This document shows positions 7,528 through 39,375 of a stretch of DNA of 49,434 nucleotides, piece by piece. Source of the DNA: Planctomycetota bacterium. GTDB taxonomy: Bacteria > Planctomycetota > UBA1135 > UBA2386. Below the pieces are notes generated by a model, which made no database searches, was not told where the DNA came from, and saw nothing but the letters and a program-made list of their open reading frames with translations. The position numbers and the translations under genes are program-made. Each line of letters opens with the position of its first letter. The first letter of the stretch is position 1. The DNA lies in the NCBI GenBank assembly GCA_020425925.1, contig JAGQRB010000280.1, forward strand, positions 1 through 49,434, in the 5' to 3' direction.

Positions 7528-7531
<4 letters not shown>
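6533..7531 (+). CDS. Secreted FMN_bind-like protein, probable ATT start
   Basis: First gene of the 17-kb cluster, 332 residues if started at ATT 6533. That start gives an ideal signal peptide (MRKLREIAFAAMAVAGVASA, cleaved before Q) and has AGGGGA at 6521-6526 with 6-nt spacing. The first ATG (6566) would leave only 10 residues of signal with no basic n-region, and a TTG at 6443 has only a distant AAGG. Residues about 25-140 (FPEADTIRNI, RPVGLMYVRTEQMEWGIAEI, WALSLECRVLGFAF) resemble the FMN_bind domain of RnfG-like proteins, but the match is weak and no flavinylation motif was seen. The second half is unrecognised. Its stop overlaps the next gene's start (ATGA), implying coupled translation with the kinase. 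Confidence 0.7.
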
Positions 7532-10275
<2,744 letters not shown>

Positions 10276-18493: not shown

Positions 18494-19372
18494 ATGAGCT
18501 CGAGAGTCCTGGGAATCGCCGGAATCCTGTCCGCCGTCGCCTGGGCCGGAGGCAACGCGACGCCGCCGGCCGCGACCGCGACGACGCCGGTCGAGCAACC
18601 GCTGATCGGCGTCACGGTGCCGAGCCGCGCCGCGGCCGTCGCGCCGGAGCAGGCCGGCAAGCTGGTGTCGCTGCCGTTCCGCGAGGGCGACCACGTCGCC
18701 AAGGATCAGGTGCTGTTCCGCCTGAACTCGACGCTGCAAGAGCTCGAGGTCGAGCGCCTGCGGCCCATCGCCGAGTCGAACCTGATCAAGACCCGCGCCG
18801 AGGCCAACCTCGCCTACGAGCAGCGCCAGACCGAACGGCTGCGCGACCTGCGGGCCCAGGAAATCGCCAGCGACGCCGACCTGCAGGAGCAGGAGCACGA
18901 GCTGCTGATCGCGCAGCTCCGGCTGCAGCAGGCCGAGATCGAGCAGGCGCAGGCCGAGAACGAGCTCAAGCAGGCGATCGAGAAGCTCAACCAGCGCTCG
19001 GTCAGCAGCCCGTTCGACGGCGTCGTGACGCTCCGGATGAAAAGCGAGGGAGAGAGCGTCGAGCGCTTCGTGCCGGTGCTCGAAGTGATGAGCTTCGACC
19101 CGCTCTGGGTCGAGTTCGACTGCCCGATCCGCAACCTCAAGGACTTCAACATCGGCACCAGGGTCGTGATCGAACCGTCGCAGAGCCCGGACGACGCCCG
19201 CATCGGCGAGGTCGTGCTGCGCTCGATGAAGGGCAACGCCGCGAGCCACACCGCGATGATCCGCGCCGCGGTGTCGAACGCGGACGCCGGTTGGCGCTCG
19301 GGCCAGAAGGTGCTGATCCGCCTGGCGCCGCCGAGCGGTGAAGGGGCTCGACCGCCGAAACCCGGCAAGTGA
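18494..19372 (+). CDS. Periplasmic HlyD-like membrane fusion (adaptor) protein
   Basis: A 292-residue adaptor. A signal peptide spans about residues 1-27 (MSSRVLGIAGILSAVAWAGG). The first lipoyl half-motif follows (AVAPEQAGKLVSLPFREGDHVAKDQVLFRL), then a long coiled-coil hairpin (about 75-175, rich in QxxE heptads), the second lipoyl half (RSVSSPFDGVVTLRM) and a beta-barrel domain. This is the architecture of RND/HlyD-family adaptors bridging an inner-membrane pump to the outer membrane. No pump or ABC ATPase is encoded next to it; the neighbours are two further HlyD-containing membrane proteins. The start at ATG 18494 was chosen over TTG 18473, which falls in the leader hairpin. Confidence 0.85.
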   Translation: MSSRVLGIAGILSAVAWAGGNATPPAATATTPVEQPLIGVTVPSRAAAVAPEQAGKLVSLPFREGDHVAKDQVLFRLNSTLQELEVERLRPIAESNLIKTRAEANLAYEQRQTERLRDLRAQEIASDADLQEQEHELLIAQLRLQQAEIEQAQAENELKQAIEKLNQRSVSSPFDGVVTLRMKSEGESVERFVPVLEVMSFDPLWVEFDCPIRNLKDFNIGTRVVIEPSQSPDDARIGEVVLRSMKGNAASHTAMIRAAVSNADAGWRSGQKVLIRLAPPSGEGARPPKPGK

Positions 19373-19381
19373 GGAAATCCG

Positions 19382-19783
19382 ATGCATCCCGACTTCGACA
19401 GCCACCGGCTCGCCGATGAACAGGTCGACGACCTGCTCGACGATCTCGAGATCCGCTGCGCCGCCGACGTGACCGCGGCCCGCGACATGGCGACCGTGCG
19501 CCGTCGGGTCCGCGTCGAGGTGCGGCCCGGCAACGCGTCTGAACGGGTCGGCCCGCCGAACTCGGGCGACACCACCGAGCTGCGCAGCCAGGTCGTCACC
19601 GCCGTCACGCCGCTGCCGGTGATGGTCGGCGACGTCTGCCACGTCACGTTCGACCGCGACCAGCTCGACCTCGCCCCCGAGCTCGCGATCTGCGACCGCT
19701 GCACCATGCTCGGCGACTCGCAGTTCGAGGTGCGCCTCAAGTTCGTGCGCGAGATCGCGCTGCCCTCCCACCTCGCGAAGTAA
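19382..19783 (+). CDS. Small PilZ-like protein
   Basis: A 133-residue cytoplasmic protein, 9 nt after the adaptor stop, with GAGGA 6 nt before ATG 19382. After an acidic helix (ADEQVDDLLDDLEI) comes VRRRVRVEV, which contains the RxxxR arrangement of PilZ c-di-GMP-binding domains, and then beta strands (MVGDVCHVTF, FEVRLKFVREI) with PilZ-like spacing. The second PilZ motif (D/NxSxxG) is not clear. Possible c-di-GMP receptor or degenerate PilZ adaptor for the export genes. Confidence 0.65.
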   Translation: MHPDFDSHRLADEQVDDLLDDLEIRCAADVTAARDMATVRRRVRVEVRPGNASERVGPPNSGDTTELRSQVVTAVTPLPVMVGDVCHVTFDRDQLDLAPELAICDRCTMLGDSQFEVRLKFVREIALPSHLAK

Positions 19784-19863
19784 CCGCTCGCCAAACGCGC
19801 CACAACGCCTTGACCGCTTCGGACGACAACGGAGGCACGCGGACTGCGACGCAGCAGAAGGCG

Positions 19864-21666
19864 ATGAGTCTGACCGCGCTCCAGTGCGACCTGCGCGCAC
19901 TGTTCGCGAGTCGGCCGACGAATCGTGCACTGCTCGAGGTGTTGCAGCGCATCGGCGACCGGCTCGGGGCGGCCTACGCGGTCGTCCACGCCCGGCTCGG
20001 CGTGCACCTGTTGTCCGAGGAGTGGCAGCCCGCCGGACACGACGTCGACAACGCCACGCGCGAGTTCGTCAACTCGACGCTCTGGGAGGCGATCTCGGCC
20101 GAAGAAGCGACCTGCACGCGTGTTCCGGGCGGCGACGGCAAGTCCGTGCTGATCACCGCGATCATGTACGACCAGGACATCGAGCCGTCGGGCGGCGCCG
20201 CGCTGGTGATCCGCGACTGCGACAAGAGCCGCGCGCTGCAGGTGCTGGCGCAGCTCGAGGGCGTGCTCGGGTTCCTGTCGCTGTTGATCGGCGGCAGCCA
20301 CTCGGAGGGCCAGCGACTGGCCGAGCGCCGTTCGATCGAGCCGCACGCCGCGGCGAGCCATCCGGTCCGACTGGCCTACGCGCTGATCAGCGACCTCGAG
20401 GCACGCTACGGCTTCGATCTCACGGCGATCGGCTTCGTCGACGACCACCATGTCGAGATCGCGGCGGTCAGCGGCGTCGAAGACCTCAGGGCCTCGAACC
20501 CGGGCATCACCGTGCTGCGCACGGCGATGGAGGAGTGCCTCGATCGCGGCGAGCCGATCGTCTACCTCGGACTCGACGACGGCCAGTCGACCGACGACTG
20601 TCGCCTGCACGCGCAATGGAGCGCCGAGACCAGCGGCAACCCGGTCGCCTCGCTGCCGCTGATCTGCATGAACGAGGTCGTCGCGGTGGTGTCGATGAGC
20701 CAGGGTGCCGGCACCAAGCTCACGGTCGACCAGGTCCAGCTGATCGCCGAGGAGATCGCGGGCTACGCCGCGCTCGTGCCGCTGACACGCGCAGCCTCAC
20801 GCAGCGTCGTCGCCCACGTCCGCGATTCGCTGCGCGCCGGCGCCCGCAACGCGTTCGGCGCCGGCCGCCGCCGCGGCCTGATCGCGCTCGCCGCGCTGCT
20901 CGGCCTCGGGCTGTGGCTGGCCTTCGGCACGCTCGACCATACGTTCACGGTGCCGTGCGTCGTCAAGGCGACCGAACGGCGCACGATCTCGTGCCCGCGT
21001 ACCGGCGTGCTGACCGAGTTGTTCGTCCACCCCGGCGACCGCGTGCGCGCCGGTCAGCTGCTGGCGTCGCTCGATGCCAACGACGAGTTCCTCAAGCGCG
21101 CCGAGCTCGCCGCCGAGATCGAATCGCTCGACGCGCTGATCGACCAGGCCGTGGCCGACCGCGACTCCGGCCAGCGCCGGACGCACGAGGCGCGCAAGCG
21201 CAGCCTGCTCGCCCAGCTCGCGATCGTCGACGCGCTGATCGGCCAGGCCCAGATCCGCGCGCCGCAGGACGGTCTGATCCTCGAGGGCGACCTGCGGGAG
21301 AACCTCGGCAGTCGACTGAAGATGGGCGATCGACTGTTCGAGCTCGCGCGCTACGACCGCGCGTCGATCTCGCTGCGCATCCCGGAGCAGCTCGTGCTGG
21401 CCGCGCACGAGGCCGCCGGCGCCCGCTTCGCCCCGCGGGCGCGACCCAACACGGTCTACGAGATCCACGACCTGCACATCGCGCCCGCGAGCACGGTGAT
21501 CGAGGGGCACAACGTCTTCCTCGGCGAGGGCACCGTGCCGATCGACCTCGATGAGCTGCCGCCCGGCATGGAGGGCACCGCCCACGTCGACGCCGGCCCG
21601 CGGTCGTCGTGGTGGGTGCTCACCCACCGCGTCACCGACTGGCTGCGCCTCAACTTCTGGCTCTGA
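19864..21666 (+). CDS. GAF-GAF-TM-HlyD membrane protein
   Basis: A 600-residue protein joining a cytoplasmic sensory half to a periplasmic adaptor half. Residues about 20-310 contain two GAF-like domains. A single TM (about 339-358, LIALAALLGLGLWLAFGTL) leads to a lipoyl/barrel-sandwich domain (VVKATERRTISCPRTGVLTELFVHPGDRV onward, split by a short helical hairpin) and a beta-barrel domain. Start ambiguous: ATG 19864 has AGAAGG only 2 nt upstream; an in-frame TTG at 19810 would add 18 residues. It is 18 nt upstream of the M50 gene, which carries a similar periplasmic half, so the two probably form a complex. Confidence 0.82.
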   Translation: MSLTALQCDLRALFASRPTNRALLEVLQRIGDRLGAAYAVVHARLGVHLLSEEWQPAGHDVDNATREFVNSTLWEAISAEEATCTRVPGGDGKSVLITAIMYDQDIEPSGGAALVIRDCDKSRALQVLAQLEGVLGFLSLLIGGSHSEGQRLAERRSIEPHAAASHPVRLAYALISDLEARYGFDLTAIGFVDDHHVEIAAVSGVEDLRASNPGITVLRTAMEECLDRGEPIVYLGLDDGQSTDDCRLHAQWSAETSGNPVASLPLICMNEVVAVVSMSQGAGTKLTVDQVQLIAEEIAGYAALVPLTRAASRSVVAHVRDSLRAGARNAFGAGRRRGLIALAALLGLGLWLAFGTLDHTFTVPCVVKATERRTISCPRTGVLTELFVHPGDRVRAGQLLASLDANDEFLKRAELAAEIESLDALIDQAVADRDSGQRRTHEARKRSLLAQLAIVDALIGQAQIRAPQDGLILEGDLRENLGSRLKMGDRLFELARYDRASISLRIPEQLVLAAHEAAGARFAPRARPNTVYEIHDLHIAPASTVIEGHNVFLGEGTVPIDLDELPPGMEGTAHVDAGPRSSWWVLTHRVTDWLRLNFWL

Positions 21667-21684
21667 TCGAACAGCGATGACGGG

Positions 21685-23829
21685 ATGACCGAGATCAGCC
21701 GCAACGAACGCGTGCTCGGCCCGCTCAGGGTCGGGCTTCGCCGGGACATCCACTTCACGCGCCAGGACACGCGCAGCGGGCCGCGCTACATCGCGCACGA
21801 TCCGGTCACGTTCCAGAACCACGCGTTCGGCGTCGCCGACTACCAGGTGCTGACGGCGATCGTGCGCCAGCGCTCGCTGACCGACACCTTCGACCTGCTC
21901 GTGCAGCGCGGCCAGCTCGACGACAACGAACACGATCGCGAGGGCTTCTACCGCTTCGTGCTCTGGCTCCACAGCACCGGCCTGCTGCACCTGCCGATCG
22001 CCAACGGCGACCTGCTCTACGAGCGCCACGTGCGCAGGCAGGCCGGCAAGCGTCCGCCGTGGTACCAGGTCTTCATGAGCTACCGGATCCCGCTCGGCAA
22101 CCCCGACGGTTTCCTCCGTCGCGCGCTGCCGTTCGTCGGCTGGCTGTTCTCGCTCAAGGGACTGCTGCTCTGGGCCGGCCTGATCGCGCTGGTGACGTGG
22201 AAGTGTGTCGGGCGGTTCGACGAGCTGTTCGCGCACAGCGCGACGATGCTCTCGATCGCGAACCTGCCGCTGCTGTGGGGCGCACTCGTGGTCCTGAAGG
22301 CGATCCACGAGTTCGGCCACGCCTTCGCCTGTCGACGGTTCGGCGCAGCGGTGCCCGAGATGGGCATCGTGCTGATCATGATGACACCGTGCGCCTACGT
22401 CGACGCCAGCGCATCGTGGCGTCTGATGAGCCGGCGGCAGCGCGCCGTCGTCGCGCTCGGTGGCATGTACGTCGAGTCGATCGTCGCCGCGTTCGCGGCG
22501 CTGGTCTGGCTCGGCACGCCGCCCGGCTTCGCACACGATCTCGCGTTCAACGTCGTCGCGCTCGCGAGCGTGGTCACCGTGCTCTTCAACATCAATCCGT
22601 TGATGAAGTACGACGGCTACTACCTGTTCTCGGACGTCGTCGGCGTCTTCAACCTGCAACAGCGCGCAGCGGCGTACCTGAACTCGTGGGTCGCCCATCT
22701 GGCGCTCGGCAGCCCTCGTCCACGCGACAGCTACGCGCCCTCCGAACGCCTGCTCTACGCGACCTACGGGCCGGCGACGTTCGTCTACCGCGTGTTCCTC
22801 GCATTCGGCATCACCACGCTCGTGATGCTGCAGTGGCCGGGCGCCGGCTTGTTCCTCGGTGCGGTGTTCCTCTACGCGCTCGCGCTGATGCCGGCGTGGC
22901 GGCTGCTGCGACGGCTCTGGAAGAACGACGAACCCGGCCTGCGCACCCGCAGCCGTCTGGTCGCGATCGGGCTCGCCACGATCCTGCCGATCTGCGTCGG
23001 CATCCTGCCGATCTCGTGGCACGTCACCGCCCCCGGCATCCTCGACCCGCACACCCGCGAATCGGTGCGGGCACCGACCGCCGGCTTCGTCAGGGAGTTC
23101 GGCGTGCGCAACGGCGCGCTCGTCGGCGAGAACGACCTGCTCTGCGAGCTCGGCAATCCCGACCTCGAGGCCCGCTGCGAGGAGATGCGGGGCGAGCTGC
23201 TCGCCGAACGCGAGAGCCTCGACGCCATCGAGCTCGAGGACTCGACGCAGGCGGCGATGCACCGTTCGCGAATCACCTACCTCGAGGCCGGTGTCGAGGA
23301 GCTCGAGCAGCGCCTGCAGGCGATGGTGCTGCGCGCGCCGGTGGCCGGGACCGTGACCAGCGCCGAGGAGCTCGCGTGGCAGGGCCGCTTCCTGCAGCAG
23401 GGCGAGGAGCTGTTCCAGATCCAGACCGGACACCGCTACCTGCGCGTCGTGCTGACCGACGAGGACGTCTCGCGCACCCAGCTCGAGATCGGGTCGCCGG
23501 CCGAGGTCCGCTTCGCCTGCAATCCGGGCATGCCGGTGCACGCCGAGGTCCGCGAGATCCGCGCCGCGGCTTCGCGCGAGGAGATCCCGCTGCCGCTGAC
23601 CATGCTCGCGGGCGGCGAGGTCTACGCCAAGCCGCTCGGCGAGCACAGCGCGATGGCGATCGCCGACCAGCCGTACCTGCACGTGCTGCTCGAGGTCGAG
23701 ACCGCCCCGCTGGCTTCGCAGGGTGCGGGCCTGACCGCACGCGTCCGGTTCGGCGCGCGCGTCGAGCTGTTCGGCTCGTGGCTGCAGCGGCGCGTGCTCG
23801 GATTCCTCAATTCCTGGCGGATGACCTGA
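21685..23829 (+). CDS. PqqD-like/M50 site-2-protease-like/HlyD membrane protein
   Basis: A 714-residue polytopic protein. Residues 1-115 form a winged-helix-like domain resembling PqqD or the N-terminus of YydH-type proteins (ADYQVLTAIVRQRSLTDTFDLL). About residues 140-440 are six or more TM segments with the M50 zinc motif HEFGH (H208-H212) and the distal NPLMKYDGYY with D310, so metal ligands are intact. Residues about 447-620 are a HlyD barrel-sandwich with short coiled coil and second half RAPVAGTVTS. Known relatives are annotated as putative peptide zinc metalloproteases. Here it closes the surface-protein cluster, suggesting processing or translocation of the two VEPR proteins. Converges on pstB1 40 nt downstream. 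Confidence 0.88.
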   Translation: MTEISRNERVLGPLRVGLRRDIHFTRQDTRSGPRYIAHDPVTFQNHAFGVADYQVLTAIVRQRSLTDTFDLLVQRGQLDDNEHDREGFYRFVLWLHSTGLLHLPIANGDLLYERHVRRQAGKRPPWYQVFMSYRIPLGNPDGFLRRALPFVGWLFSLKGLLLWAGLIALVTWKCVGRFDELFAHSATMLSIANLPLLWGALVVLKAIHEFGHAFACRRFGAAVPEMGIVLIMMTPCAYVDASASWRLMSRRQRAVVALGGMYVESIVAAFAALVWLGTPPGFAHDLAFNVVALASVVTVLFNINPLMKYDGYYLFSDVVGVFNLQQRAAAYLNSWVAHLALGSPRPRDSYAPSERLLYATYGPATFVYRVFLAFGITTLVMLQWPGAGLFLGAVFLYALALMPAWRLLRRLWKNDEPGLRTRSRLVAIGLATILPICVGILPISWHVTAPGILDPHTRESVRAPTAGFVREFGVRNGALVGENDLLCELGNPDLEARCEEMRGELLAERESLDAIELEDSTQAAMHRSRITYLEAGVEELEQRLQAMVLRAPVAGTVTSAEELAWQGRFLQQGEELFQIQTGHRYLRVVLTDEDVSRTQLEIGSPAEVRFACNPGMPVHAEVREIRAAASREEIPLPLTMLAGGEVYAKPLGEHSAMAIADQPYLHVLLEVETAPLASQGAGLTARVRFGARVELFGSWLQRRVLGFLNSWRMT

Positions 23830-23869: not shown

Positions 23870-24701
<832 letters not shown>

Positions 24702-24709
<8 letters not shown>

Positions 24710-25481
24710 AACGACCCTCCAGGTAGTCGACGGTGCGCGAGTCCTCGGCGCTGCGGAACAGCCGCTCGGTCTCACCGGTCTCGACACAGGCGCCACCGAG
24801 GAAGAACGCGGTGCGATCGGCAAGGCGGCGCGCCTGCTGCACGAGGTTGGTCACCAGGATGATCGTCATCTCGCTCTTGAGATCCTTGAGCACCTCCTCG
24901 ATGCGCATCGTCGTCACCGGGTCGACGGCGATCGAGAACTCGTCGAGCAGCAGCAGCTGCGGGTCCTGCGACAGCGCGCGCGCGATCGTCAGGCGTTGCT
25001 GCTGACCGCCGCTGAGCAGTGAACCCAGGCTCTTCAGTCGATCCTTGACCTCGTCCCACAGCGCCGCGCGCCGCAGGCAGCGCTCGACGACCTCGTCGAG
25101 CACGGCGCGACGGCGCTCGCCGGCGAGCCGCGGGGCGAGCGCGACGTTGTCGTAGATCGTCAGCGGCAGACCGACCGGCAGCGGGAACACGACGCCGATC
25201 ATGCGGCGCAGCGCGTAGAGGTTGCGCACCGCGCCGATGTCGCGACCCGCGAACGTGATCGAGCCCTCGACGCGCATGCCGTGCACGAACTCGTCCATGC
25301 GGTTCAGCGACCGCAGGAACGACGACTTGCCGGCGTTGGCGGGACCGATGATGCCGAAGATCTCGTTGCGGCGAACCTCGAGGTCGACACCCTGCAGCGC
25401 GACCTTGTCGCCGTAGCGGATCGTCAGGCCGCGCACCTCGAGCAACGTCTCGGCCGCGAGTTCCGGCGCCGGCGCGCTCAC
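24702..25481 (-). CDS. pstB: Phosphate ABC transporter ATPase with degenerate Q- and H-loops (PstB2)
   Basis: A 259-residue PstB paralogue. Walker A is GPANAGKSS and the signature LSGGQQQR (S157) is canonical. The Q-loop glutamine is replaced by proline (GVVFPLPVG, P100), and the H-loop histidine by asparagine (LVTNLVQQA, N212). Walker B reads LLLLDEFSIAVDP, keeping the Asp-Glu pair but changing the following DEPxSALDP consensus. GTG 25481 overlaps the pstA stop (GTGA). The defects are complementary to those of PstB1, so this is unlikely to be simple gene decay. Confidence 0.92.
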
Positions 25482-26362
25482 CACTTCTTCCTCCCGCGCA
25501 GCCGCATCCGGAAGTAGATCGCGACCGCGTTCATCGACAGCACGACCAGGATCAGCAGCAGCGCGACCGTGAACGGCACGTGCCGCGGCACGTTGGTCAC
25601 CTGGGTCGAGACGTTGAACAGGTGCAGCGACAGCGCCATCGTCTTGTCGAAGGCGGTGCTCGGGAACATCTGCCGGAAGAACACCGCGCCGGTGAACATG
25701 ATCGGCGCGGTCTCGCCGACCGCGCGACAGACGACGAGGATCAGGCCGGTCAGGATGCCGCTGCCCGAGTTCGGCAGCACGATGCGCCAGATCGTCTGCC
25801 AGCGCGTCGCGCCCATGTTCCAGCAGGCGTCGCGGAACGAATGCGGCACCGCCTGCAGCGACTCGCGGGTCGAGACGATCACGACCGGCAGCGTCATGAC
25901 CGCGAGCGTCGCGCTGGCGGCGAGGATCGACTTGCCGAAGCCGGCGAAGTAGACGAACGCACCGACGCCGAACAGCGCGTGCACGATCGACGGCACGCCG
26001 GCGAGGTTGACGATCGCGACGTTGATCGTGCGGGTCAGCCAGTTGTCGCGCGCGTACTCGCTGAGGTAGATCGCCGCGGCGACGCCGAGCGGCAGCGCGA
26101 ACAGCAGCGCGAACGCGGTCAGCCAGACGGTGCCGACCAGCGCGGTCGCGATGCCGCCGGCGGCGCCGTTGTCGCGCGGCTTGGTGGTCAGGAACTCCCA
26201 GGTCAGACCCTGCGCCCCCTCGAACACCAGCACGCCGAGGATCAGCACGGCCGGGATCAGCAGCAGCAGCGTGATCGCGAGGAAGCCGAGCTTCAGCAGG
26301 CGCTGCGTGCCGAGCGCCTTCTGCTCGTGCGGGGTCGCGGAGAACGTCGTCAGCGAGCTCAC
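25478..26362 (-). CDS. pstA: Phosphate ABC transporter permease PstA
   Basis: A 294-residue inner-membrane permease with six predicted TM helices and the EAA-type loop (SFRDACWNMGATRWQTIWRIVLPNS). VSIVHA-like PSIVHALFG and RAVGETAPIMFTG are typical of PstA. GTG 26362 has AGGAG 6 nt upstream and overlaps the pstC stop (GTGA), so translation is coupled. Confidence 0.95.
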   Translation of the reverse strand: MSSLTTFSATPHEQKALGTQRLLKLGFLAITLLLLIPAVLILGVLVFEGAQGLTWEFLTTKPRDNGAAGGIATALVGTVWLTAFALLFALPLGVAAAIYLSEYARDNWLTRTINVAIVNLAGVPSIVHALFGVGAFVYFAGFGKSILAASATLAVMTLPVVIVSTRESLQAVPHSFRDACWNMGATRWQTIWRIVLPNSGSGILTGLILVVCRAVGETAPIMFTGAVFFRQMFPSTAFDKTMALSLHLFNVSTQVTNVPRHVPFTVALLLILVVLSMNAVAIYFRMRLRGRKKW

Positions 26363-27354
26363 GCCGCACTCCTGCGGCCGCGCACGATCCGGTCCGCCAG
26401 CAGGTTGATGAAGAACGTGATCAGGAACAGCACCAGGCCGAGCACGAACAGCACCTGGTAGTGATCGCTGCCGACCGCGGCCTCGCCGAGTTCGGCGGCG
26501 ATCGTCGCGGTCAGCGTCGCGGCCGAGTCGAAGACGCTCTCGGGGATCATCAGCCGGTGACCGCTCGCCATCAGCACCGCGATGGTCTCGCCGAACGCGC
26601 GGCCGACGCCGAGCAGCACCGCGGCCGACAGACCGGGCCGCGCGTGCGGCAGCACCACCCGCCAGATCACCTGCCAGCGGGTCGCGCCGAGCGACTCGGC
26701 CGCCTCGCGGTAGCTCTCCGGCACGGCCTTGAGCGCGTCCTCGGCGATCGTCGCGATGATCGGCGCCGCCATCAGCCCGAGGATGATGCCGGCGTTGAGC
26801 ACGTTGAGGCCGACCTGCACGCCGAAGACGTCCTGGATGACGCCCTTCATCACGTGCAGGCCGATGACGCCCCAGACCACCGACGGGATCGCGGCGAGCA
26901 GCTCGATGCCGATCTTGAGCCACTCGCGCTGCTTGCCGCGCGCGAACTCGCCGATGTAGATCGCGGCGCCGAACGACAGCGGCACCGCGACCAGCATCGC
27001 GACCACGGTGATCCACGCGGTGCCGGCGATCAGCGGCAACGCCCCGTACTCGGGCGGCTCGATCGTCGGCTCCCAGCGGTGGCCGAACAGCAGCTCGGAC
27101 AGTGACAGCCGGTGCACCAGGAAGTCGAAGCCCTGGCTGCCGATGAACACGAAGATCGCGGCGATGAACAGGATCGCCGAGACGCCGCCGACCAGCACGA
27201 TCGCGCGCGCCAGCAGATCGAACTTCCAGGCGCGGTCGCGGCGGTCGAGTGCCGCCGCCCAGTCGGTTGCGGCGCCCGCGGCCCGATCGCCCGGCACGAG
27301 CGTCGGACGGGGCACGGGCAGTTCTGGCTTCGGTTGCATGCGCGGCGCGGTCAT
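26359..27354 (-). CDS. pstC: Phosphate ABC transporter permease PstC
   Basis: A 331-residue inner-membrane permease. An N-terminal cytoplasmic region of about 45 residues is Pro/Arg-rich, then come six TM helices with IPSVVWGVIGLHV, the EAA loop (SYREAAESLGATRWQVIWRVVLP) and GRAFGETIAVLMASGH. ATG 27354 lies 3 nt after the stop of the PhoU-fusion gene. Confidence 0.95.
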   Translation of the reverse strand: MTAPRMQPKPELPVPRPTLVPGDRAAGAATDWAAALDRRDRAWKFDLLARAIVLVGGVSAILFIAAIFVFIGSQGFDFLVHRLSLSELLFGHRWEPTIEPPEYGALPLIAGTAWITVVAMLVAVPLSFGAAIYIGEFARGKQREWLKIGIELLAAIPSVVWGVIGLHVMKGVIQDVFGVQVGLNVLNAGIILGLMAAPIIATIAEDALKAVPESYREAAESLGATRWQVIWRVVLPHARPGLSAAVLLGVGRAFGETIAVLMASGHRLMIPESVFDSAATLTATIAAELGEAAVGSDHYQVLFVLGLVLFLITFFINLLADRIVRGRRSAA

Positions 27355-27357
27355 GGG

Positions 27358-28503
27358 TCAGCTGGGCTGCTCGCCGTACAACCGCTCCATGAGGTCGCGG
27401 ATGCGGGGGGTGAGCTCGCGGTAGACGGCCTCGGGGCGAAGATCGGGGTCGAGACCCCAGACGATCGCAGTCGTGTGGAACGGCAGCTTCGGCAGATGCT
27501 CGCGCGTCGTCGGGTCGAGGCCGACGACGACGTCGTACTGGTCGAGCTGCTCGCGCAGCGTGTCGAGTTCGGTCGGCCACGCACCGCGCAGATCGAGCCC
27601 GACGGTCTCGGCGAACGCGATGTAGGCGGGATCGACGTCCTCGGCGTGCTGCCAGCCGGCGCTGTCGTAGCCGCCGCCGTCGGGGAACGTCTTCTTGGCG
27701 TGGTGTTCGGCGAGCTGGCTCGGACCGGTGTTGCTGGCGTCGACGAACAGCAGGTTGAACTGTCTCTCGCTCTTCACCTTGCCGGTGACGACGAACATCG
27801 TCTCGTCGCAGACGTTCTTGGCCTGATGGATCACGCGCTGGAGCCGATTGAACGTCGCGATCAACGCGAACAGGTCCAGCACCGGGCGCGAGCCGGCCTC
27901 GCCCTCGCGAACCAGGTCGTCGAACACGCGGTCGAAGTGGCGCGCGAACTGCTGCGTGGCGGCGATCGTCGCCTGCGCCTGTCGGGCATCGCGCCGATCG
28001 AACGCCTGCAGCGCGTCGGCGAGCGAACGCCGCGCCTGCTCGGACATCACCTCCAGATCGCGGGCCACGGTCGGCGGCGGCTCGACGGTCAGCTGGCAGG
28101 CGGTGCGGGCGATCGTCGCGGCGTAGTCGCCGATGCGCTCGAGTCCGATGCTCAGACGCAGCACCGAAGACACGTAGCGCAGATGACCGGCGCTCGGCAG
28201 GTGCCTGGCGACGAACGCATGGCACAGTCGATCGAGCTCACGCGTCTGCCGGTTGATCGTGCAGTCGCCGAGCACCGTGTTCGCCGCCCGATCCTTGTCG
28301 AGCTCGAGCACCGCCCGCACCGCGTCGTCGAGGGCCTCGACGATCTGCCGGCCGACGATGTCGATCAGTCGACCGATCCAGTCGAGATCCTGCTGCAGAC
28401 GCTCTTCGTAGTGCGGGGTCACGTCGGGGACGGGCTCGGGTCGAGCGAACGACGAGATGGAAGCCGCCGGCACGGTCGGATTCGAGCGCGAAGCGACCGT
28501 CAT
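27358..28503 (-). CDS. PhoU domain fused to a catalytically dead LMW phosphatase/ArsC-like domain
   Basis: A 381-residue protein. Residues about 30-240 are the two three-helix bundles of PhoU (RQIVEALDDAVRAVLELDKD, LRLSIGLERIGDYAATIART, RLQRVIHQAKNVCDET), the negative regulator of Pst signalling. Residues about 248-375 have the fold pattern of low-molecular-weight phosphatase/arsenate reductase (NLLFVDASNTGPSQLAEHH). In active enzymes this P-loop is CX5R; here Cys is D255 and Arg is P261, so catalysis should be impossible. The domain may have become an oxyanion- or partner-binding module. It lies 19 nt after pstS and 3 nt before pstC, inside the operon. Confidence 0.88.
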   Translation of the reverse strand: MTVASRSNPTVPAASISSFARPEPVPDVTPHYEERLQQDLDWIGRLIDIVGRQIVEALDDAVRAVLELDKDRAANTVLGDCTINRQTRELDRLCHAFVARHLPSAGHLRYVSSVLRLSIGLERIGDYAATIARTACQLTVEPPPTVARDLEVMSEQARRSLADALQAFDRRDARQAQATIAATQQFARHFDRVFDDLVREGEAGSRPVLDLFALIATFNRLQRVIHQAKNVCDETMFVVTGKVKSERQFNLLFVDASNTGPSQLAEHHAKKTFPDGGGYDSAGWQHAEDVDPAYIAFAETVGLDLRGAWPTELDTLREQLDQYDVVVGLDPTTREHLPKLPFHTTAIVWGLDPDLRPEAVYRELTPRIRDLMERLYGEQPS

Positions 28504-28522
28504 CGCCGGATTCGGGCGCAGC

Positions 28523-29392
28523 TCAGAGTTTGCGCAGCGGGATGTATCCCTTCTTCAACAGCACCTGCTGGCCGTCGTCGCTCGCGATCCAGTCGAGGTA
28601 GGCCGCGATGTCGCCCTCGGGCTCGCCGATCGTGTACATGAACAGCGGCCGCGCGATCGGATAGGTCTTGTCGAGCACGGTGTCGATGCTCGGCACCACC
28701 GGCGGCGATTCCGCGGAGGCCGACACCGGCACGATCTTGACCTGATCCGTCGCGTAGGCGATGCCGCTGTAGCCGATCGCGCTCTTCGTCTTGGCGCAGA
28801 AGTCGACCACGTCCTTGCTGCCGTTCAGGTTGTTGCAGCGCATCTTGAAGCGCCCGTTCTCGCCGAGCACGTGCTCGCGGAAGCACTCGTAGGTGCCGCT
28901 GTTGTTCTGCCGCGAGGCCAGCACGACCTCGTTGGCCTCCGGGCTGCCGAAGTCGACGCCGAGGTCCTTCCAGGAGTCGATCTTGCCGCCGTCGCCGAAC
29001 AGCTCCTGGAGCTGCGCGATGGTGATCGACTCGAGCGGGTTCTCCTTGTGCACGAAGATCGCGATGCCGTCGTAGCCGACGACGTGCTGGACCGGGTCGT
29101 GTCCGTGGTTCTTCGCGGCCTCGATCTCCTTCTCCTTGAGCGGCCGACTCGAATTCGCGATGTCGACGTCGCCGTCGATCAGGTTCTTGATGCCGACACC
29201 CGAGCCGCCGCCCGACACCGAGATCGCGATCTCGGGATGCAGCTCGTGGTAGGCCTCGGCGAGCGAACCGGCGACCTCGAGCAGGGTGTCGGAGCCGAGG
29301 TTCTGGATCTCCTTGTGGCCCGAACCAAAGCAGCCGGTCAGGAAGGGGAACGCCAGCGCCAGGCTGAGCGACGGAAGCGAGAGTTTCGTCAC
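28523..29392 (-). CDS. pstS: Phosphate-binding lipoprotein PstS
   Basis: A 289-residue periplasmic substrate-binding protein. The signal peptide ends in lipobox FLTGC (C21). Mature sequence shows the PstS hallmarks: IQNLGSDTLLEV, SGGGSGVGIKNLIDGDVDIANSSR, YDGIAIFVHKENP, NNSGTYECF and SAIGYSGIAYA. Start is GTG 29392, chosen because it gives a compact signal peptide and there is no other start nearby; no clear Shine-Dalgarno. First gene of the pst operon. Confidence 0.94.
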   Translation of the reverse strand: MTKLSLPSLSLALAFPFLTGCFGSGHKEIQNLGSDTLLEVAGSLAEAYHELHPEIAISVSGGGSGVGIKNLIDGDVDIANSSRPLKEKEIEAAKNHGHDPVQHVVGYDGIAIFVHKENPLESITIAQLQELFGDGGKIDSWKDLGVDFGSPEANEVVLASRQNNSGTYECFREHVLGENGRFKMRCNNLNGSKDVVDFCAKTKSAIGYSGIAYATDQVKIVPVSASAESPPVVPSIDTVLDKTYPIARPLFMYTIGEPEGDIAAYLDWIASDDGQQVLLKKGYIPLRKL

Positions 29393-34776: not shown

Positions 34777-35010
34777 ATGAAGCAGACCGAGATCGACTGC
34801 AGAGGCCTGAAGTGCCCGTTGCCGATCGTGCATCTCGCGCTGGCGTTGAAGGACCTGGAGCCCGGCGCAGAGCTGTCGATCGTTGCCACCGACCCCGCCT
34901 TCGTGCCCGATCTGCGGGCCTGGTCCGAGCTCACGGGCAACCCGCTCCTGGACCTGGTCGAGGACGGTGAGACCAAGCGCGCGACGATCTGCAAGGCGGG
35001 GGCACCGTGA
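34777..35010 (+). CDS. TusA-family sulfur carrier protein
   Basis: A 77-residue protein with the TusA hallmark CRGLKCPLPI (Cys-Pro-x-Pro), whose first conserved Cys accepts sulfur as persulfide in family members, followed by the usual two-layer alpha/beta pattern ending LDLVEDGETKRATICK. ATG 34777 was chosen so that the conserved N-terminal strand (QTEIDCRG) starts at residue 3. Its stop overlaps the next gene (GTGA), and the two DsrE-like genes plus a kinase follow. Confidence 0.93.
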   Translation: MKQTEIDCRGLKCPLPIVHLALALKDLEPGAELSIVATDPAFVPDLRAWSELTGNPLLDLVEDGETKRATICKAGAP

Positions 35011-35543
35011 CCAGCGCGCCGCCGTTGGTGCCGTGCAGCGCGGCGGCCCCGTCCGCGGCGACGAACCGGACCGGACCCGGCGAGGCCACGTTCATCGTCT
35101 TCAGCGGCGAGATGGACCGCCTGCTCGGCGCCCTGACGCTGGCGACGACGGCGGCGGCAACCGGCATGAAGACCACGCTGTTCTTCACGTTCTGGGGCCT
35201 GACCGCGGTGCGCCGCGACAAGCGCAGGAGCCGCGGCAGTCTGATCGACCGCATGTTCGGCTTCATGCTGCCCGCCGGCACCGGCGGCCTGCCGACCTCG
35301 CGCGTCAACTTCCTCGGCCTCGGTCCGCGGCTGTTCCGCTGGCGAATGGCGAAGAAGCGCATGCCCGACCTCGACACCCTCATCGAGCAGGCACGCGCAC
35401 TCGGCGTCCGCATGCTCGCCTGCGAAGCTTCCGCCGACGTGCTCGGCCTCGCCGCCGAGGACCTGCGCGACGGCATCGAGATCGCCGGCGCCACCAGCTG
35501 CCTACGGGACGCGGCCCGCTCGGAAGTCGCGATGTTCATCTGA
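35007..35543 (+). CDS. DsrE2-like (DsrE/DsrF/DrsH-like) protein
   Basis: A 178-residue protein started at GTG 35007, overlapping the tusA stop. Features of the DsrE2 family: an N-terminal strand (ATFIVFSGEMDRLLGALTL), a hydrophobic segment (GMKTTLFFTFWGL), a KRMPDL linker and the conserved Cys region RMLACEASADVLGLAAEDL. Relatives act with TusA in sulfur trafficking and are often membrane-associated. The first about 25 residues are poorly conserved. Confidence 0.88.
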   Translation: MTSAPPLVPCSAAAPSAATNRTGPGEATFIVFSGEMDRLLGALTLATTAAATGMKTTLFFTFWGLTAVRRDKRRSRGSLIDRMFGFMLPAGTGGLPTSRVNFLGLGPRLFRWRMAKKRMPDLDTLIEQARALGVRMLACEASADVLGLAAEDLRDGIEIAGATSCLRDAARSEVAMFI

Positions 35544-35932
35544 TGAGCCAGGCGACGACCAGAGAGGCCCAGCTGCAGGTGCTGCTCAGCGAGGGGCCGG
35601 CCCGCCTGATGCGATCCGAGCTCGCGCTGCAGACCGCGCTCGCGGCAGCGTCCTGCGGCACCGAGGTGACCCTGTTCCTGACCCAGGCGGCGAGCATCTG
35701 GGGCTGCCGCAAGGCACTCGAGGGCGAAGCCGGTCGACTGCAGGACCTGCTCGGCACCCTGCTGTCGCTCGGCGTCCGCATCGAGTGCTGCTCGACCTGC
35801 GCCGAGAAAGCTTGCGCGCCGGCTCCGGACGGCGTCGACGAATGGGGCGGCCTGCGCGACGGCATCACGCCGGTCGGCATGGTCACGTTCGCCTCGCGAG
35901 CGGCCCGCGGCTGTCCGACCTTGACGTTCTAG
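35543..35932 (+). CDS. Small DsrE-like protein
   Basis: A 129-residue protein, ATG 35543 overlapping the previous stop by one base (TGATG). Pattern of the DsrE/YchN fold: LQVLLSEGPARLMRSEL, ALAAASCGTEVTLFLTQAAS, LLSLGVRIECCSTCAEKA, then a C-terminal strand (GMVTFAS). Four Cys cluster at CCSTCAEKAC, more than usual for the family, consistent with persulfide or redox chemistry. Confidence 0.82.
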   Translation: MSQATTREAQLQVLLSEGPARLMRSELALQTALAAASCGTEVTLFLTQAASIWGCRKALEGEAGRLQDLLGTLLSLGVRIECCSTCAEKACAPAPDGVDEWGGLRDGITPVGMVTFASRAARGCPTLTF

Positions 35933-35938
35933 ACGACC

Positions 35939-37612
35939 ATGGCGGACGAGCTCGAGCAGCTGCGGAACGAGGTCGCGGCCCTGCGCGCCGCGAACGAGCA
36001 GCTCCGCGCCGAGGCCCGATCGGTGGCGAGCGCGAACGTCAACGCCGCGCAGCAGATCATGGAGATGAGCCTCGCGCGCCAGCGTGACCTCGAGGCCCAC
36101 AACGAGCGCATCCAGGCCGCGCTCGCTTTCGCGGAGCAGGCGTCGGCCGAGAAGTCGATGTTCCTCGCCAACATCAGTCACGAGCTGCGCACGCCGCTGA
36201 ACGGCATCATCGGCATGGCGACGATCGTGCTCGACGAGGAGGAAGACGCCGAACGTCGCGAGCGACTTCGCCTGCTGCTGAGCTCGGGCCAGATGCTGCT
36301 GCAGATCGTCAACGACGTGCTCGACTTCTCGAAGATCGAGGTCGACAGGCTGGAGCTGGTCGACACCGTGTTCGACGTCTGGCAGACGGCGGAGAGCCTG
36401 GTCGGCCTGCTCAGCGCCGGCAACCGCCGGCACGAGGTCGACATCCGGCTCGAGATCGACCCGCGCGTGCCCCGCGCCGTGCGCGGCGACGAGCTGCGGC
36501 TGCGGCAGGTGCTCACCAACCTCGCGAGCAACGCCGCGAAGTTCACCGAGACCGGCGAGGTCGTCGTGCGGCTCGCCACCGCAGGCCAACGCATCCGCTT
36601 CGAGATCACCGACACCGGCTGCGGCATCGCTCCCGAGGTCCTGGCCCGCCTGTTCGAGCCGTTCACGCAGGGCGACGCCTCGGCGACGCGCCGCAAGGGC
36701 GGCACCGGCCTCGGCCTCGCGATCTCGCGGCGGCTCGTGCGCCTGATGGGCGGCGACATCCGGGTCGATACCGCGCCGGGCCGCGGCAGCACGTTCTGGT
36801 TCGACGTCGAGCTCGAGCTGGTCGACGACGCGCGCGATGCCGCACCCATCGCGAAGGCGCCGTTCCGGGGCGCGATCGTCGTGACCGGGGACGAACGACT
36901 GCAGCGCACCGTCGCGCAACACCTCGGCGCGCTCGGTGTCCCGACCGTCGACGCCGCCGACCGTGCCGGCGGCGATGCGAACGGAGCGGATCCGCTGCTG
37001 TGGTTCATCGACACCGAGTCGCCCGCCGCGGTCGCGGCCAGCCCGAGCGCGTCCGACCGCTGCATCCTGCTGCTCGGTTCCGAGGGCCACGACGCCGGCC
37101 AGTGGCGCGCGCGTTTCCCGCGCGCCCGGATGCTCTACCGGCCACTGCTCCCGACCGCGCTGGCGAAGCAGTGCCTCGATGGCACCGTCCCCGGGACGAC
37201 CACCTCCGCCGCGACCACGGCGGGAGCGCAGCCGCGACCCGGCATGCGCGTGCTCGTGGTCGAGGACAACCCGATCAACACCCGGGTCGCGGTCGCCTAC
37301 CTGACGAAGCTCGGCTGCAAGGTCGACGAGGCCTGCAACGGCGTCGAGGCGGTCGCGGCGGTCGCGCAGCAGCGCTACGACGTCGTGTTCATGGACTGCC
37401 AGATGCCGGTCATGGACGGCTACGAGGCGACGGTTCGCATCCGCGAATCCGAGCAGGGCGGCAACCGGCGGTCCTACATCGTGGCGCTGACCGCGCACGC
37501 GCTCGCCCAGGACCGCGAACGCTGCCTCGCGGCCGGCATGGACGACTATCTCTGCAAGCCGGTCTCGCGCACCGCACTCGCGAAGCTGCTCGGCAGCCGC
37601 GCCGACACCTGA
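35939..37612 (+). CDS. Soluble hybrid histidine kinase
   Basis: A 557-residue cytoplasmic kinase with no TM. Residues 1-70 are a coiled coil (LEQLRNEVAALRAANEQLRAE). HisKA has ISHELRTPLNG with H81, then ATPase motifs TNLASNAAKFT, DTGCGIAP and GTGLGLAIS. A degenerate receiver-like segment (about 305-405) precedes a full receiver with acceptor Asp486 (VVFMDCQMP) and K-containing YLCKPVS. Domain order parallels the membrane kinase at 7528-10275. It starts 6 nt after the DsrE-like gene, so sulfur-relay proteins are its likely input. No separate output regulator is encoded. Confidence 0.92.
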   Translation: MADELEQLRNEVAALRAANEQLRAEARSVASANVNAAQQIMEMSLARQRDLEAHNERIQAALAFAEQASAEKSMFLANISHELRTPLNGIIGMATIVLDEEEDAERRERLRLLLSSGQMLLQIVNDVLDFSKIEVDRLELVDTVFDVWQTAESLVGLLSAGNRRHEVDIRLEIDPRVPRAVRGDELRLRQVLTNLASNAAKFTETGEVVVRLATAGQRIRFEITDTGCGIAPEVLARLFEPFTQGDASATRRKGGTGLGLAISRRLVRLMGGDIRVDTAPGRGSTFWFDVELELVDDARDAAPIAKAPFRGAIVVTGDERLQRTVAQHLGALGVPTVDAADRAGGDANGADPLLWFIDTESPAAVAASPSASDRCILLLGSEGHDAGQWRARFPRARMLYRPLLPTALAKQCLDGTVPGTTTSAATTAGAQPRPGMRVLVVEDNPINTRVAVAYLTKLGCKVDEACNGVEAVAAVAQQRYDVVFMDCQMPVMDGYEATVRIRESEQGGNRRSYIVALTAHALAQDRERCLAAGMDDYLCKPVSRTALAKLLGSRADT

Positions 37613-37632: not shown

Positions 37633-39375
37633 TCAGTGCGGCCTCGCGGCACCGAGCGTGAGCCGCATGCCGTCGCTCGCCTGCAGCATCGGGTTGGCCG
37701 CCCCGTCGAACCAGAGCGCCTGGAAGTCGAGCATCACCCCTTCGAACGACGGGTCGCTCGGCAGCGCGAACGGCACCACGAACGATGAAGCGACCGCGCT
37801 CGCCAGGAAGATCGCGCTGCCGGTCTGCAGACCGACGTGGTCGGCACCGCTGCCGATGAGACCCGGCGAGGCGAGCACGGGGATGGGCGGCGCGGCGCGG
37901 TCGGCGAACAGCACGGCCAGCGACCCCGACGGACCGTGTGCGACCAGGTCGACGGTCGAGCCGAGGACCGGCTGCGCGTCGTCGACCGTCGCCAGCCGAG
38001 GGTGGTCCGGGCCGGTGCTGCCGCCGAGCTGCGTCTGCGTCGCTCCCGGCATCGCGATGCCGTGGAGCTCCCGACCGACGCTCGGTGAGTAGGCGTTCAT
38101 GAAGACGCGCCCGCGGCAGGTGACGAGACCCTTCGGGCTGGCGTTGCCACCGGGATCGAGCGTGCAGACGTGGGTCGTGCCGGCCGCCGTTCCGTCGGAG
38201 GACCACAGCTCGCCGTTGACGGTCCCCTTGCACACGAACAGCACGCCGTCGCCGCAGGCGACGAACTCGCTCGGGTTCGATCCGAACCCACCCGGCTGGA
38301 TGTCGAGGCAGAGTCGCGTCCCGGCGACGGTGCCGTCGCTGACCCATGGCTCGGCGCCGGCCAGCTGGCCGTTGCCGACGAAGAAGATCCGGCCGCCCGC
38401 CGGTCGGAGGTCGCGCGCTTCGACGCCCAGCGCCATCGAACCGGCGAGCGTTCCGTCGCTGACGTAGACCATGCCGACGCCGGAACCCTTCAGCTCGGTG
38501 AAGAACAGCCGGTCACCCGCGACGACGAGCTCCCCGGGCCCCCACGAGCTGCCGCCGAAGACGTCGCCGATCGGCACGGTGCCGGCCGCGGTGCCGTCGG
38601 TCCGCCAGACCTCCGAACCGATCGTCGGCGAGGTCGCGATGAAGTAGGCGAGGTCACCGAGTCGGACGAAGGCGCGCGGCTCGCTGCCGGTCGTTCCCGG
38701 GTAGAGATCCGCGATCATCTGCGTGCCCGCGGCCGTCCCGTCGCTGATCCACAGCTCCTTGCCGTGCGCAGCCGTGATCGCGGAGAACAACACCCGATCG
38801 CCGAACGCGAAGATCGCCTGCGGCCGACCGTTCCCGACGCCCGGAATGATGTCGACGACCATGTGACTGCCCGCCGCCGTCCCGTCGGAAACGTAGAGCT
38901 CGTCGCCGTGGGTGCCGTCGTTGGCCGAGAAGAACACGCGCTGACCCGCAGCCACCATGTGCTCGATCACGGAACCGTTGGAACCCGGACGGATCTCGGC
39001 GATGCGCATCGTGCCGGCCGCGCTGCCGTCGGTGACGTAGAGCTCGTGGCCGTGGCCGATGTCGAAGGCCGAGTAGAACAGCCGCGGGCCGGCGGCCGTG
39101 CAGCAGGGCACCAGGTCGTAGGGCTGGCTGCTGCCCTGGCCCGGCACCAGGTCGACCACGCGCTGCGCACCACCCGCGGGCGTCCAACGCCAGAGCTCGG
39201 AGCCGTGAGCTGACGTGCGGCCCTGGAAGTAGAGCACGTCGGCGAACGCGCTGGTCAGGTAGGCGATGTGGTTGATGTTCGCGGAACCGGGCTCGAGGTC
39301 GGCGACGAGGCCGCATTGCGCCGCGGCGGAGGCCGCCATCGCCGAGAGGCAGGACACGGTGAGTAACAATCGCAT
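37633..39375 (-). CDS. Secreted ELWxxDGTxxGT-repeat protein
   Basis: A 580-residue exported protein with signal peptide MRLLLTVSCLSAMAASAAAQ. About eight repeats of some 45-50 residues follow the pattern GxELWxSDGTAAGTxxxxDxxPG (e.g. GKELWISDGTAAGTQMIADL), a beta-propeller-like ELWxxDGT family. The last about 115 residues form a separate beta-rich domain (ending in FDGAANPMLQASDGMRLTLG) that resembles C-terminal domains on other secreted planctomycete proteins. Role unknown. It faces the kinase gene end-to-end (20-nt gap). Confidence 0.9.
   Translation of the reverse strand: MRLLLTVSCLSAMAASAAAQCGLVADLEPGSANINHIAYLTSAFADVLYFQGRTSAHGSELWRWTPAGGAQRVVDLVPGQGSSQPYDLVPCCTAAGPRLFYSAFDIGHGHELYVTDGSAAGTMRIAEIRPGSNGSVIEHMVAAGQRVFFSANDGTHGDELYVSDGTAAGSHMVVDIIPGVGNGRPQAIFAFGDRVLFSAITAAHGKELWISDGTAAGTQMIADLYPGTTGSEPRAFVRLGDLAYFIATSPTIGSEVWRTDGTAAGTVPIGDVFGGSSWGPGELVVAGDRLFFTELKGSGVGMVYVSDGTLAGSMALGVEARDLRPAGGRIFFVGNGQLAGAEPWVSDGTVAGTRLCLDIQPGGFGSNPSEFVACGDGVLFVCKGTVNGELWSSDGTAAGTTHVCTLDPGGNASPKGLVTCRGRVFMNAYSPSVGRELHGIAMPGATQTQLGGSTGPDHPRLATVDDAQPVLGSTVDLVAHGPSGSLAVLFADRAAPPIPVLASPGLIGSGADHVGLQTGSAIFLASAVASSFVVPFALPSDPSFEGVMLDFQALWFDGAANPMLQASDGMRLTLGAARPH

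Follow-up and report, generated by a model that had tools for sequence, protein, structure and literature searches.

Bacterial sensing of sulfane sulfur is known mainly for repressors that undergo modification of their own cysteines (CstR/YrkD, sHdrR/SoxR). Regulation in trans is described for cytosolic hybrid kinases that lack a sensory domain, including HqsK with H-NOX and VpsS with NosP, and VpsS is co-cistronic with its sensor (PMC6769237). Here we examine a four-gene locus, tusA-dsrE2-dsrE-kinase, on a 49,434-nucleotide (nt) contig of a Planctomycetota bacterium (GCA_020425925.1, JAGQRB010000280.1; the whole contig is termed the window below), in which three genes for sulfur-transfer proteins directly precede the gene for a soluble hybrid histidine kinase. 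On balance, we favor the interpretation that these carriers act as the trans-acting sulfur input of a kinase without a sensor of its own, and that the four genes form one signaling unit, for which we infer both the contact and the signal.

Sulfur carriers also lie near signaling genes in described systems, among them yrkE of Bacillus licheniformis, which we take to be a DsrE2. In that organism, nreBC, described as a heme-PAS sulfide sensor, is in a cluster with yrkE (a DsrE homolog) and yrkI (TusA), and the functions of these carriers are called unknown (PMC9918477). The shdr-sox island of Hyphomicrobium encodes SoxR, sHdrR, and TusA, and TusA is described as possibly participating in signal transduction (PMC12423496). 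For the homologs from Metallosphaera cuprina, Cys93 and Cys101 of DsrE3A are each described as taking up thiosulfate from tetrathionate (PMC4175335). No report of a TusA-DsrE2-DsrE-kinase operon was found among the papers listed in searches of the open-licence PMC literature.

The locus comprises the following features:

34777-35010, + strand: tusA-like sulfur carrier (77 amino acids, ATG start, catalytic Cys13, extra Cys8; DCRGLKCPLPIV)
35007-35543, + strand: dsrE2-like sulfurtransferase (178 amino acids, GTG start, conserved Cys139, PF13686)
35543-35932, + strand: dsrE-like gene, DsrE3-type (129 amino acids, ATG start, Cys83, Cys86, Cys91)
35939-37612, + strand: soluble hybrid histidine kinase (557 amino acids, ATG start; coiled coil, HisKA, HATPase_c, an unassigned stretch, and receiver)
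35942-36115, + strand: N-terminal coiled coil of the kinase, the proposed docking region, with the conserved segment VASANVNAAQQI (VAxANxxAAxL)
36152-36340, + strand: HisKA phospho-acceptor domain (His81, SHELRTP)
37250-37588, + strand: C-terminal receiver domain of the kinase (Pfam)

An earlier note on this DNA had described overlapping carrier genes followed after 6 nt by a soluble hybrid kinase with only a coiled coil as input region, and the coordinates, Pfam, and hydropathy agree: tusA and dsrE2 overlap by 4 nt, dsrE2 and dsrE by 1 nt, the gap before the kinase is 6 nt, and all four proteins appear soluble by hydropathy (the highest 19-residue Kyte-Doolittle mean, 1.33, occurs in the DsrE-like protein). 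In the kinase, Pfam assigns HisKA to residues 72-134, HATPase_c to 183-292, and a receiver to 438-550, with no family above cut-off ahead of HisKA or between HATPase_c and the receiver; the first 71 residues read as a coiled coil, and Hpt was not found in this protein. The kinase therefore fits the cytosolic hybrid type that has no sensory domain and adjoins a candidate sensor gene. The dsrE stop codon (TAG) and the kinase start are in the same frame, two codons apart (35930-35941), such that read-through would produce a DsrE-kinase fusion. A scan for promoters and terminators was empty.

The gene order is conserved wherever a close DsrE-like protein was found among relatives. A search with this protein of its own genome and 100 relatives gave matches in 8/101 genomes (its own and seven others, in six genera and four families), with none in the sole genome of the same genus (G001). 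All seven relatives have tusA-dsrE2-dsrE-kinase in identical order, and chance adjacency was set aside on this basis (7/7). Six of their kinases are 33-44% identical to the window kinase (that of G061 is cut by a contig end), and the seventh, in G016, is ∼31% identical and has a different core, without a Pfam match to HisKA. Spacing is tight throughout: the tusA-dsrE2 interval is -11 to +2 nt (eight loci) and, over ten loci including the window, -1 to +27 nt between dsrE2 and dsrE and +1 to +23 nt between dsrE and the kinase. By inspection, the flanking genes differ among genomes, with G049 and G061, two members of one genus, as the exception. Distances computed pairwise for TusA, DsrE2, DsrE, and the kinase correlate (r 0.62-0.79; 0/5000 permutations), as calculated without a species-tree control, and DsrE2 is single-copy and the linked gene in 12/12 genomes with the system.

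The survey was extended to 392 genomes of the phylum with a profile of the eight DsrE-like proteins (E 1e-4, with the best ∼11 candidates per genome scored). Matches occur at 65 places in 60/392 genomes, with at least 74 bits in eight genomes and at most 58.1 in the rest; loci were available for 30 of the 65, and 26 new ones were read. Two of these (G279 and G338) are further tusA-dsrE2-dsrE-kinase sets, in G162 a dsrE-kinase pair is divergent from dsrE2 and tusA, and in G407 tusA-dsrE is found opposite a strand with dsrE2 followed by a 930-amino-acid PAS-GGDEF-EAL protein (Pfam). In the remaining 22 weaker loci, TusA-like matches adjoin DsrE, mostly on both sides, and no kinase match is present within 1.5 kb. 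Two kinds of DsrE can thus be distinguished, and the kinase goes with one of them. The genome of the window also has the other kind, in a second TusA-DsrE-TusA cluster (G000:C573; L224 11948-13675), where CGDL and CGSG replace CPxP in the TusA-like domains, as judged by eye.

Full-length DsrE2 was defined by our own cut of at least 110 bits to Pfam DrsE_2, which leaves out partial matches, other DsrE families, and a broken gene in G424. Of the 23 such genes in the 392 genomes, 11 are at most 1 kb from a signaling gene (G338, G279, G063, G267, G422, G162, G407, G088, G134, G000, and G074). The earlier note had made its proposal depend on the kinase being linked to these genes in other genomes, and such linkage is what both searches found (7/7 relatives; 11/23 DsrE2 genes). 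Conservation of the four-gene order across planctomycetes, which it had proposed as a check, holds only in part: the order recurs in every relative with the close DsrE-like protein, and the system is patchy across the phylum (DsrE-like in 8/101 genomes, linked DsrE2 in 11/392). Six of the 12 unlinked DsrE2 are within long frames of 616-859 amino acids, and the two of these that were scanned are pyridine-nucleotide reductase-rhodanese-TusA-DsrE2 fusions; three others follow a rhodanese/metallo-beta-lactamase gene, one (G160) is between an aminotransferase gene and tusA, and the remaining two are those of G233 and G118.

Named DsrE2 loci were also compared, as the best 80 of at least 576. An adjacent kinase is present in six (L050, L057, L058, L059, L074, and L108), of which L050 and L074 duplicate the G030 and G279 loci. 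Among the other 74, tusA is beside dsrE2 in 72 and an adjacent kinase in none; in L061 and L090, weaker matches of receiver type lie at a distance of 1.3-2 kb. Although L059 is filed under Armatimonadota, it was not accepted as an instance from another phylum, as its DsrE2 is 65-72% identical to those of Pirellulales; a misbinned contig is likely, and L059 is probably planctomycete.

The carriers are assigned to families by Pfam and retain conserved cysteines. The TusA family product (PF01206, 67.9 bits, cut-off 28.6) has CPLP at residues 13-16 and is not the NCBIfam equivalog NF001423 (33.5 bits, under the cut-off of 78). Its active cysteine is kept in 20/20 linked sets, and the extra cysteine, five residues earlier, in 18/20 (these counts, and those below for linked sets, include the duplicate L074); in the named loci, the extra cysteine occurs in 6/6 linked vs. 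15/72 unlinked loci with a TusA. The second protein (PF13686, DrsE_2, 129.8 bits, cut-off 25) is named DsrE2-like, as it scores 61.8 bits to NCBIfam SulfCarrDsrE2 (NF047629), under 210; it is the sole DrsE_2 match of its genome, has the PDB relatives 3pnx and 2qs7, and its conserved cysteine is present in 20/20 linked sets.

The third protein matches DsrE (PF02635, 34.1 bits, cut-off 22.7), with Cys83, Cys86, and another cysteine shortly after them conserved in 14/14 sequences, as counted by eye. Its AlphaFold model (mean pLDDT 91.3) matches YchN 1jx7, 3mc3, and DsrEFH 2hy5, with 1jx7 and 3mc3 closest, and in a profile alignment Cys83 and Cys91 fall on two cysteines of 3mc3, which is named as a DsrE3A homolog (PMC4175335). 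The DsrE fold and two conserved cysteines eight residues apart are thus those of DsrE3. The same source defines DsrE3A by linkage to dihydrolipoamide dehydrogenase and DsrE3B by genes for lipoamide-binding proteins, neither of which was found among the adjacent genes and the 20 other window genes scanned. As this linkage is missing, the protein is given only the label DsrE3-type.

Comparison of the linked sets separates a constant part from a variable one. TusA and DsrE2 are present in all 20 sets, and nearly all of the kinases share the N-terminal coil, with VAxANxxAAxL or a variant of it (AQA[DE]A[IL]V[HN]S in G162, G407, and G134). In the 14 aligned coils, including that of the divergent G016 kinase, the alanines of VAxANxxAAxL are invariant and there is no cysteine; in G422 the motif is placed behind an extra N-terminal part. 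The outputs vary: a single receiver in the window, an added Hpt in G162, no receiver in G422, PAS-GGDEF-EAL in G407, and, in L057, L058, L108, and L059, two receivers with an extra stretch before HisKA that is weakly GAF-like, below cut-off, in L059 only. Since the association of carriers and coil persists across different outputs, the carriers as kinase input are the best reading of the locus. The suggestion in the earlier note that sulfur carriers report to the kinase is partly supported in this form, by the common coil, by the diversity of outputs, and by the FIST-paired kinases described below, with the interaction and response themselves still conjectural.

The more specific idea that the DsrE-like protein is the docking partner fared less well. 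In L057, L058, L108, G267, and G422 the dsrE-like gene is missing and the kinase directly follows tusA-dsrE2, which makes an obligatory role for this protein unlikely; G267 and G422 are also not among the 60 genomes matched by the DsrE-like profile, within the best ∼11 candidates per genome. The constant parts are TusA and DsrE2, and this makes DsrE2 the better docking candidate. Outside the 20 sets, the G424 stretch contains a broken DsrE2 and gave no match to TusA; a DsrE2 remnant with a stop codon (L222, ∼4860-5040) directly precedes an intact-looking type I coil kinase, a possible case of carrier decay with the kinase kept.

The linked kinases were also ranked by score against the window kinase, a ranking on which both architecture and descent bear: the top score of the genome belongs to the linked kinase in G030, G074, G049, G088, and G338 and to another gene in G279, G063, G162, G267, G134, and G061 (where a contig end cuts the linked kinase), and the G016 kinase is absent from the matches at 1e-30. 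In G134, the linked kinase frame is short (L219, 6459-7388, 309 amino acids), where the genome search reads through a TGA; it is either truncated or a kinase without a receiver. Downstream of the kinase in two Pirellulales loci, L108 (8717-10593) and L057 (8668-10179), a receiver gene is accompanied by a receiver-output gene, which in L108 encodes HisKA-receiver-guanylate cyclase and in L057 has a phosphatase-like end, by eye; these are candidate relay targets.

Specificity of the coil was examined with a type I profile, over the ∼16 best candidates per genome in the 392 genomes and 80 per genome in 81 relatives. In the 392 genomes, 13 match at E 0.001 and nine reach at least 45 bits; seven of the nine are linked to carriers, the upstream DsrE2 of G424 is interrupted by a stop, and the G270 kinase starts at a contig end. 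The 81 relatives gave one further strong match, in G028 (56 bits), near a contig end; the ∼200 nt upstream have no recognizable DsrE end, and a DsrE2 search of this genome was empty, though run without a positive control. Five matches are independent of the profile, of which G267, G422, and G424 are linked (G424 with its broken DsrE2 and without a TusA match) and G028 and G270 are not shown to be. Among the low-scoring matches, seven and a further four loci were read; beyond the linked G422 and a match in G190, the rest are unrelated by eye. The variant coil is found in six genomes, three of which are the training loci.

As controls, six kinases were chosen to which the window kinase aligned from near its N-terminus. 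One (L230) was set aside because it is not sensorless: its N-terminal part is long and resembles HAMP by eye. The gene upstream of L230 is not FIST-like by eye. The other five (L226, L227, L228, L229, and L231) are sensorless hybrids, each directly after a FIST gene (PF08495 and PF10442), a class that is presumably that of NosP, and their stretches yielded neither tusA nor dsrE. Their coils form a separate family, roughly SExxxxQSKRAML, in which VAxANxxAAxL is missing. With leave-one-out profiles, 9/9 type I coils were assigned to their own class (25-87 bits vs. at most 7.3 for the other) and 5/5 FIST coils to theirs (40-71 bits vs. at most 8.7), in a small, non-random set with close relatives in training that comprised nine type I coils and G162, without the Pirellulales, L059, and G016 coils. 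These FIST-kinase pairs may reflect a general pairing of sensor to coil.

In an alignment of the linked kinases (19 sequences, full-length or partial, with G270 included), no cysteine is invariant; the commonest column, receiver residue 487, has cysteine in 10/17 and looks generic, since it is equally present in the FIST-paired kinases (5/5). Sensing by persulfidation of the kinase was set aside because no cysteine is invariant and none occurs in the 14 coils, although a receiver cysteine may still be modified.

In the mechanism that we propose, TusA, the DsrE2-like protein, and the DsrE3-type protein would acquire and relay sulfur, as persulfide or thiosulfonate, via their conserved cysteines. 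A DsrE-fold carrier would then dock in trans on the coiled coil at the N-terminus of the kinase, more probably DsrE2 than the DsrE-like protein, or else a mixed oligomer of both, and its sulfur loading would switch autophosphorylation and phosphotransfer to the receiver, from which an Hpt or regulator encoded elsewhere may be the downstream target. The docking, the effect of sulfur loading, the sulfur species, the direction of the switch, and the downstream target are all steps that we infer. The joint inheritance, in scattered planctomycetes, of the carriers and a kinase that lacks a recognized sensor suggests that these organisms may sense their internal sulfur state via the carriers. A broader proposal, to which we give somewhat less than even chances, is that a sulfurtransferase relay provides the sensory input of bacterial signaling proteins: DsrE2 loaded with sulfur, alone or together with a DsrE3-type protein, would act on a dedicated coil that can be joined to varied outputs (hybrid kinase, double-receiver kinase, c-di-GMP enzyme), as one of several docking codes, each matched to a trans-acting sensor of the DsrE or FIST type.

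Several observations weigh against this interpretation. The M. cuprina DsrE3A and TusA are described as reacting with tetrathionate and not with polysulfide or glutathione persulfide (PMC4175335), and because of this lack of reactivity the signal here may not be polysulfide. In G407 the partner of the carriers is an EAL protein instead of a kinase, and the coil of G162 belongs to neither class (3.0 and 8.3 bits). Coil kinases at contig edges (G028:C290 and G270:C549) come from genomes in which no DsrE2 was found, and carriers are absent within 1.5 kb of the variant-coil kinases in G450, G378, and G438, and within 12-kb stretches for G450 and G438. A SpoIIE phosphatase in G190 has a weakly similar coil segment. 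Linked kinases supplied the training set of the coil profile, so that most of its strong matches are the training sequences.

Two other explanations have to be considered, both of which we regard as unlikely. In the first, the arrow is reversed: the kinase senses something else, and the co-expressed operon lets its phosphorelay control a sulfur-transfer pathway. Kinases commonly adjoin what they regulate, nreBC of B. licheniformis clusters with yrkE and yrkI and is described as activating sqr-pdo (PMC9918477), and the L057, L058, L108, and L059 kinases have the extra stretch before HisKA (with the sub-threshold GAF resemblance of L059); however, the window kinase has no recognized sensor domain, neither window neighbor is a DNA-binding regulator by Pfam, and the output differs between loci while the carriers stay. 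In the second, similarly improbable in our estimate, the carriers are metabolic, handling sulfide or polysulfide or supplying sulfur for cofactors or tRNA, and the kinase merely shares their transcript. TusA, DsrE2, and DsrE3 are reported to traffic sulfur elsewhere (PMC4175335), and the unlinked DsrE2 genes, with six of 12 in long fusion frames (two scanned) and three behind a rhodanese/metallo-beta-lactamase gene, accord with such a role. This explanation is countered by the lack of any such enzyme among the 20 scanned window genes (the flanks of the other linked loci were read by eye) and of a second DsrE2 copy in 12/12 genomes, and co-transcription alone hardly explains joint inheritance with a coil-bearing kinase. 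That the coil is a generic signaling linker, adjacent through shared ancestry and not function, is very improbable: weakly similar segments in other signaling proteins, the patchy distribution, and the missing species-tree control are in its favor, but the order is kept over four families at ∼31-44% kinase identity with changed surroundings, and the motif is missing from five FIST-paired kinases in the same genomes.

If the carriers do serve as the input of the kinase, a kinase that lacks invariant cysteines and is read by the sulfur carriers of the cell would represent a different sensing logic, TusA and DsrE proteins would gain a regulatory role, and the choice of partner by sensorless kinases would follow a testable rule.

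In the window, 33 genes were called, and Pfam was run on 20 of the 29 outside the operon; these include phosphate transport, PhoU, planctomycete cytochrome/DUF1552, efflux, HlyD, flavin reductase, and another hybrid kinase, and several have no Pfam family. None of the 20 belongs to a sulfur-oxidation or tRNA-thiolation family, in agreement with the earlier note, and such roles for the operon were set aside on this ground. The operon is flanked by a cytochrome/DUF1552 pair on one side and, on the other, by an opposite-strand gene without a Pfam family, which encodes a 580-amino-acid protein (37633-39375) with repeated SDGTAAGT segments. Elsewhere, a phosphate uptake set (23870-29392, - strand) comprises a binding protein, two permeases, two ABC ATPases, and PhoU. 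Two very large proteins (1526 and 1159 amino acids, 10284-18340) both start with a common GETVEPRIL segment and contain 282-bp tandem repeats (12965-13472 and 16450-17122); a HAMP hybrid kinase (7528-10275) lies on one side of them and HlyD-type genes (18494-23829) on the other, and they are possibly repeat proteins with their export genes.

Similar to M. cuprina, where a DsrE3A-DsrE2B-TusA cluster is known, the same three protein families occur here, and Cys93 and Cys101 of DsrE3A are eight residues apart, as are Cys83 and Cys91 in the window, where Cys86 is additional; the M. cuprina cluster is located between dihydrolipoamide dehydrogenase and heterodisulfide-reductase-like genes, whereas the window has a kinase instead. 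In B. licheniformis, DsrE and TusA homologs are likewise clustered with a sulfide-responsive two-component system, although sensing there is described as occurring via heme-PAS, with a separate response regulator and with sqr and pdo present (PMC9918477). The regulators of the Hyphomicrobium island are described as ArsR-type repressors, and not a kinase as in the window (PMC12423496). The H-NOX/HqsK and NosP/VpsS pairs are parallels, as the window kinase is a cytosolic hybrid without a sensory domain, and FIST-kinase pairs with this type of architecture were found in the same genomes. The sensor here would be a sulfurtransferase set and not a heme protein, with two or three carriers in place of one receptor and a coiled coil of another family; by Pfam, no heme NO-binding or FIST sensor is present in the four operon proteins, and the operon is therefore not a member of the NosP/H-NOX class, although by analogy it may work in a similar manner.

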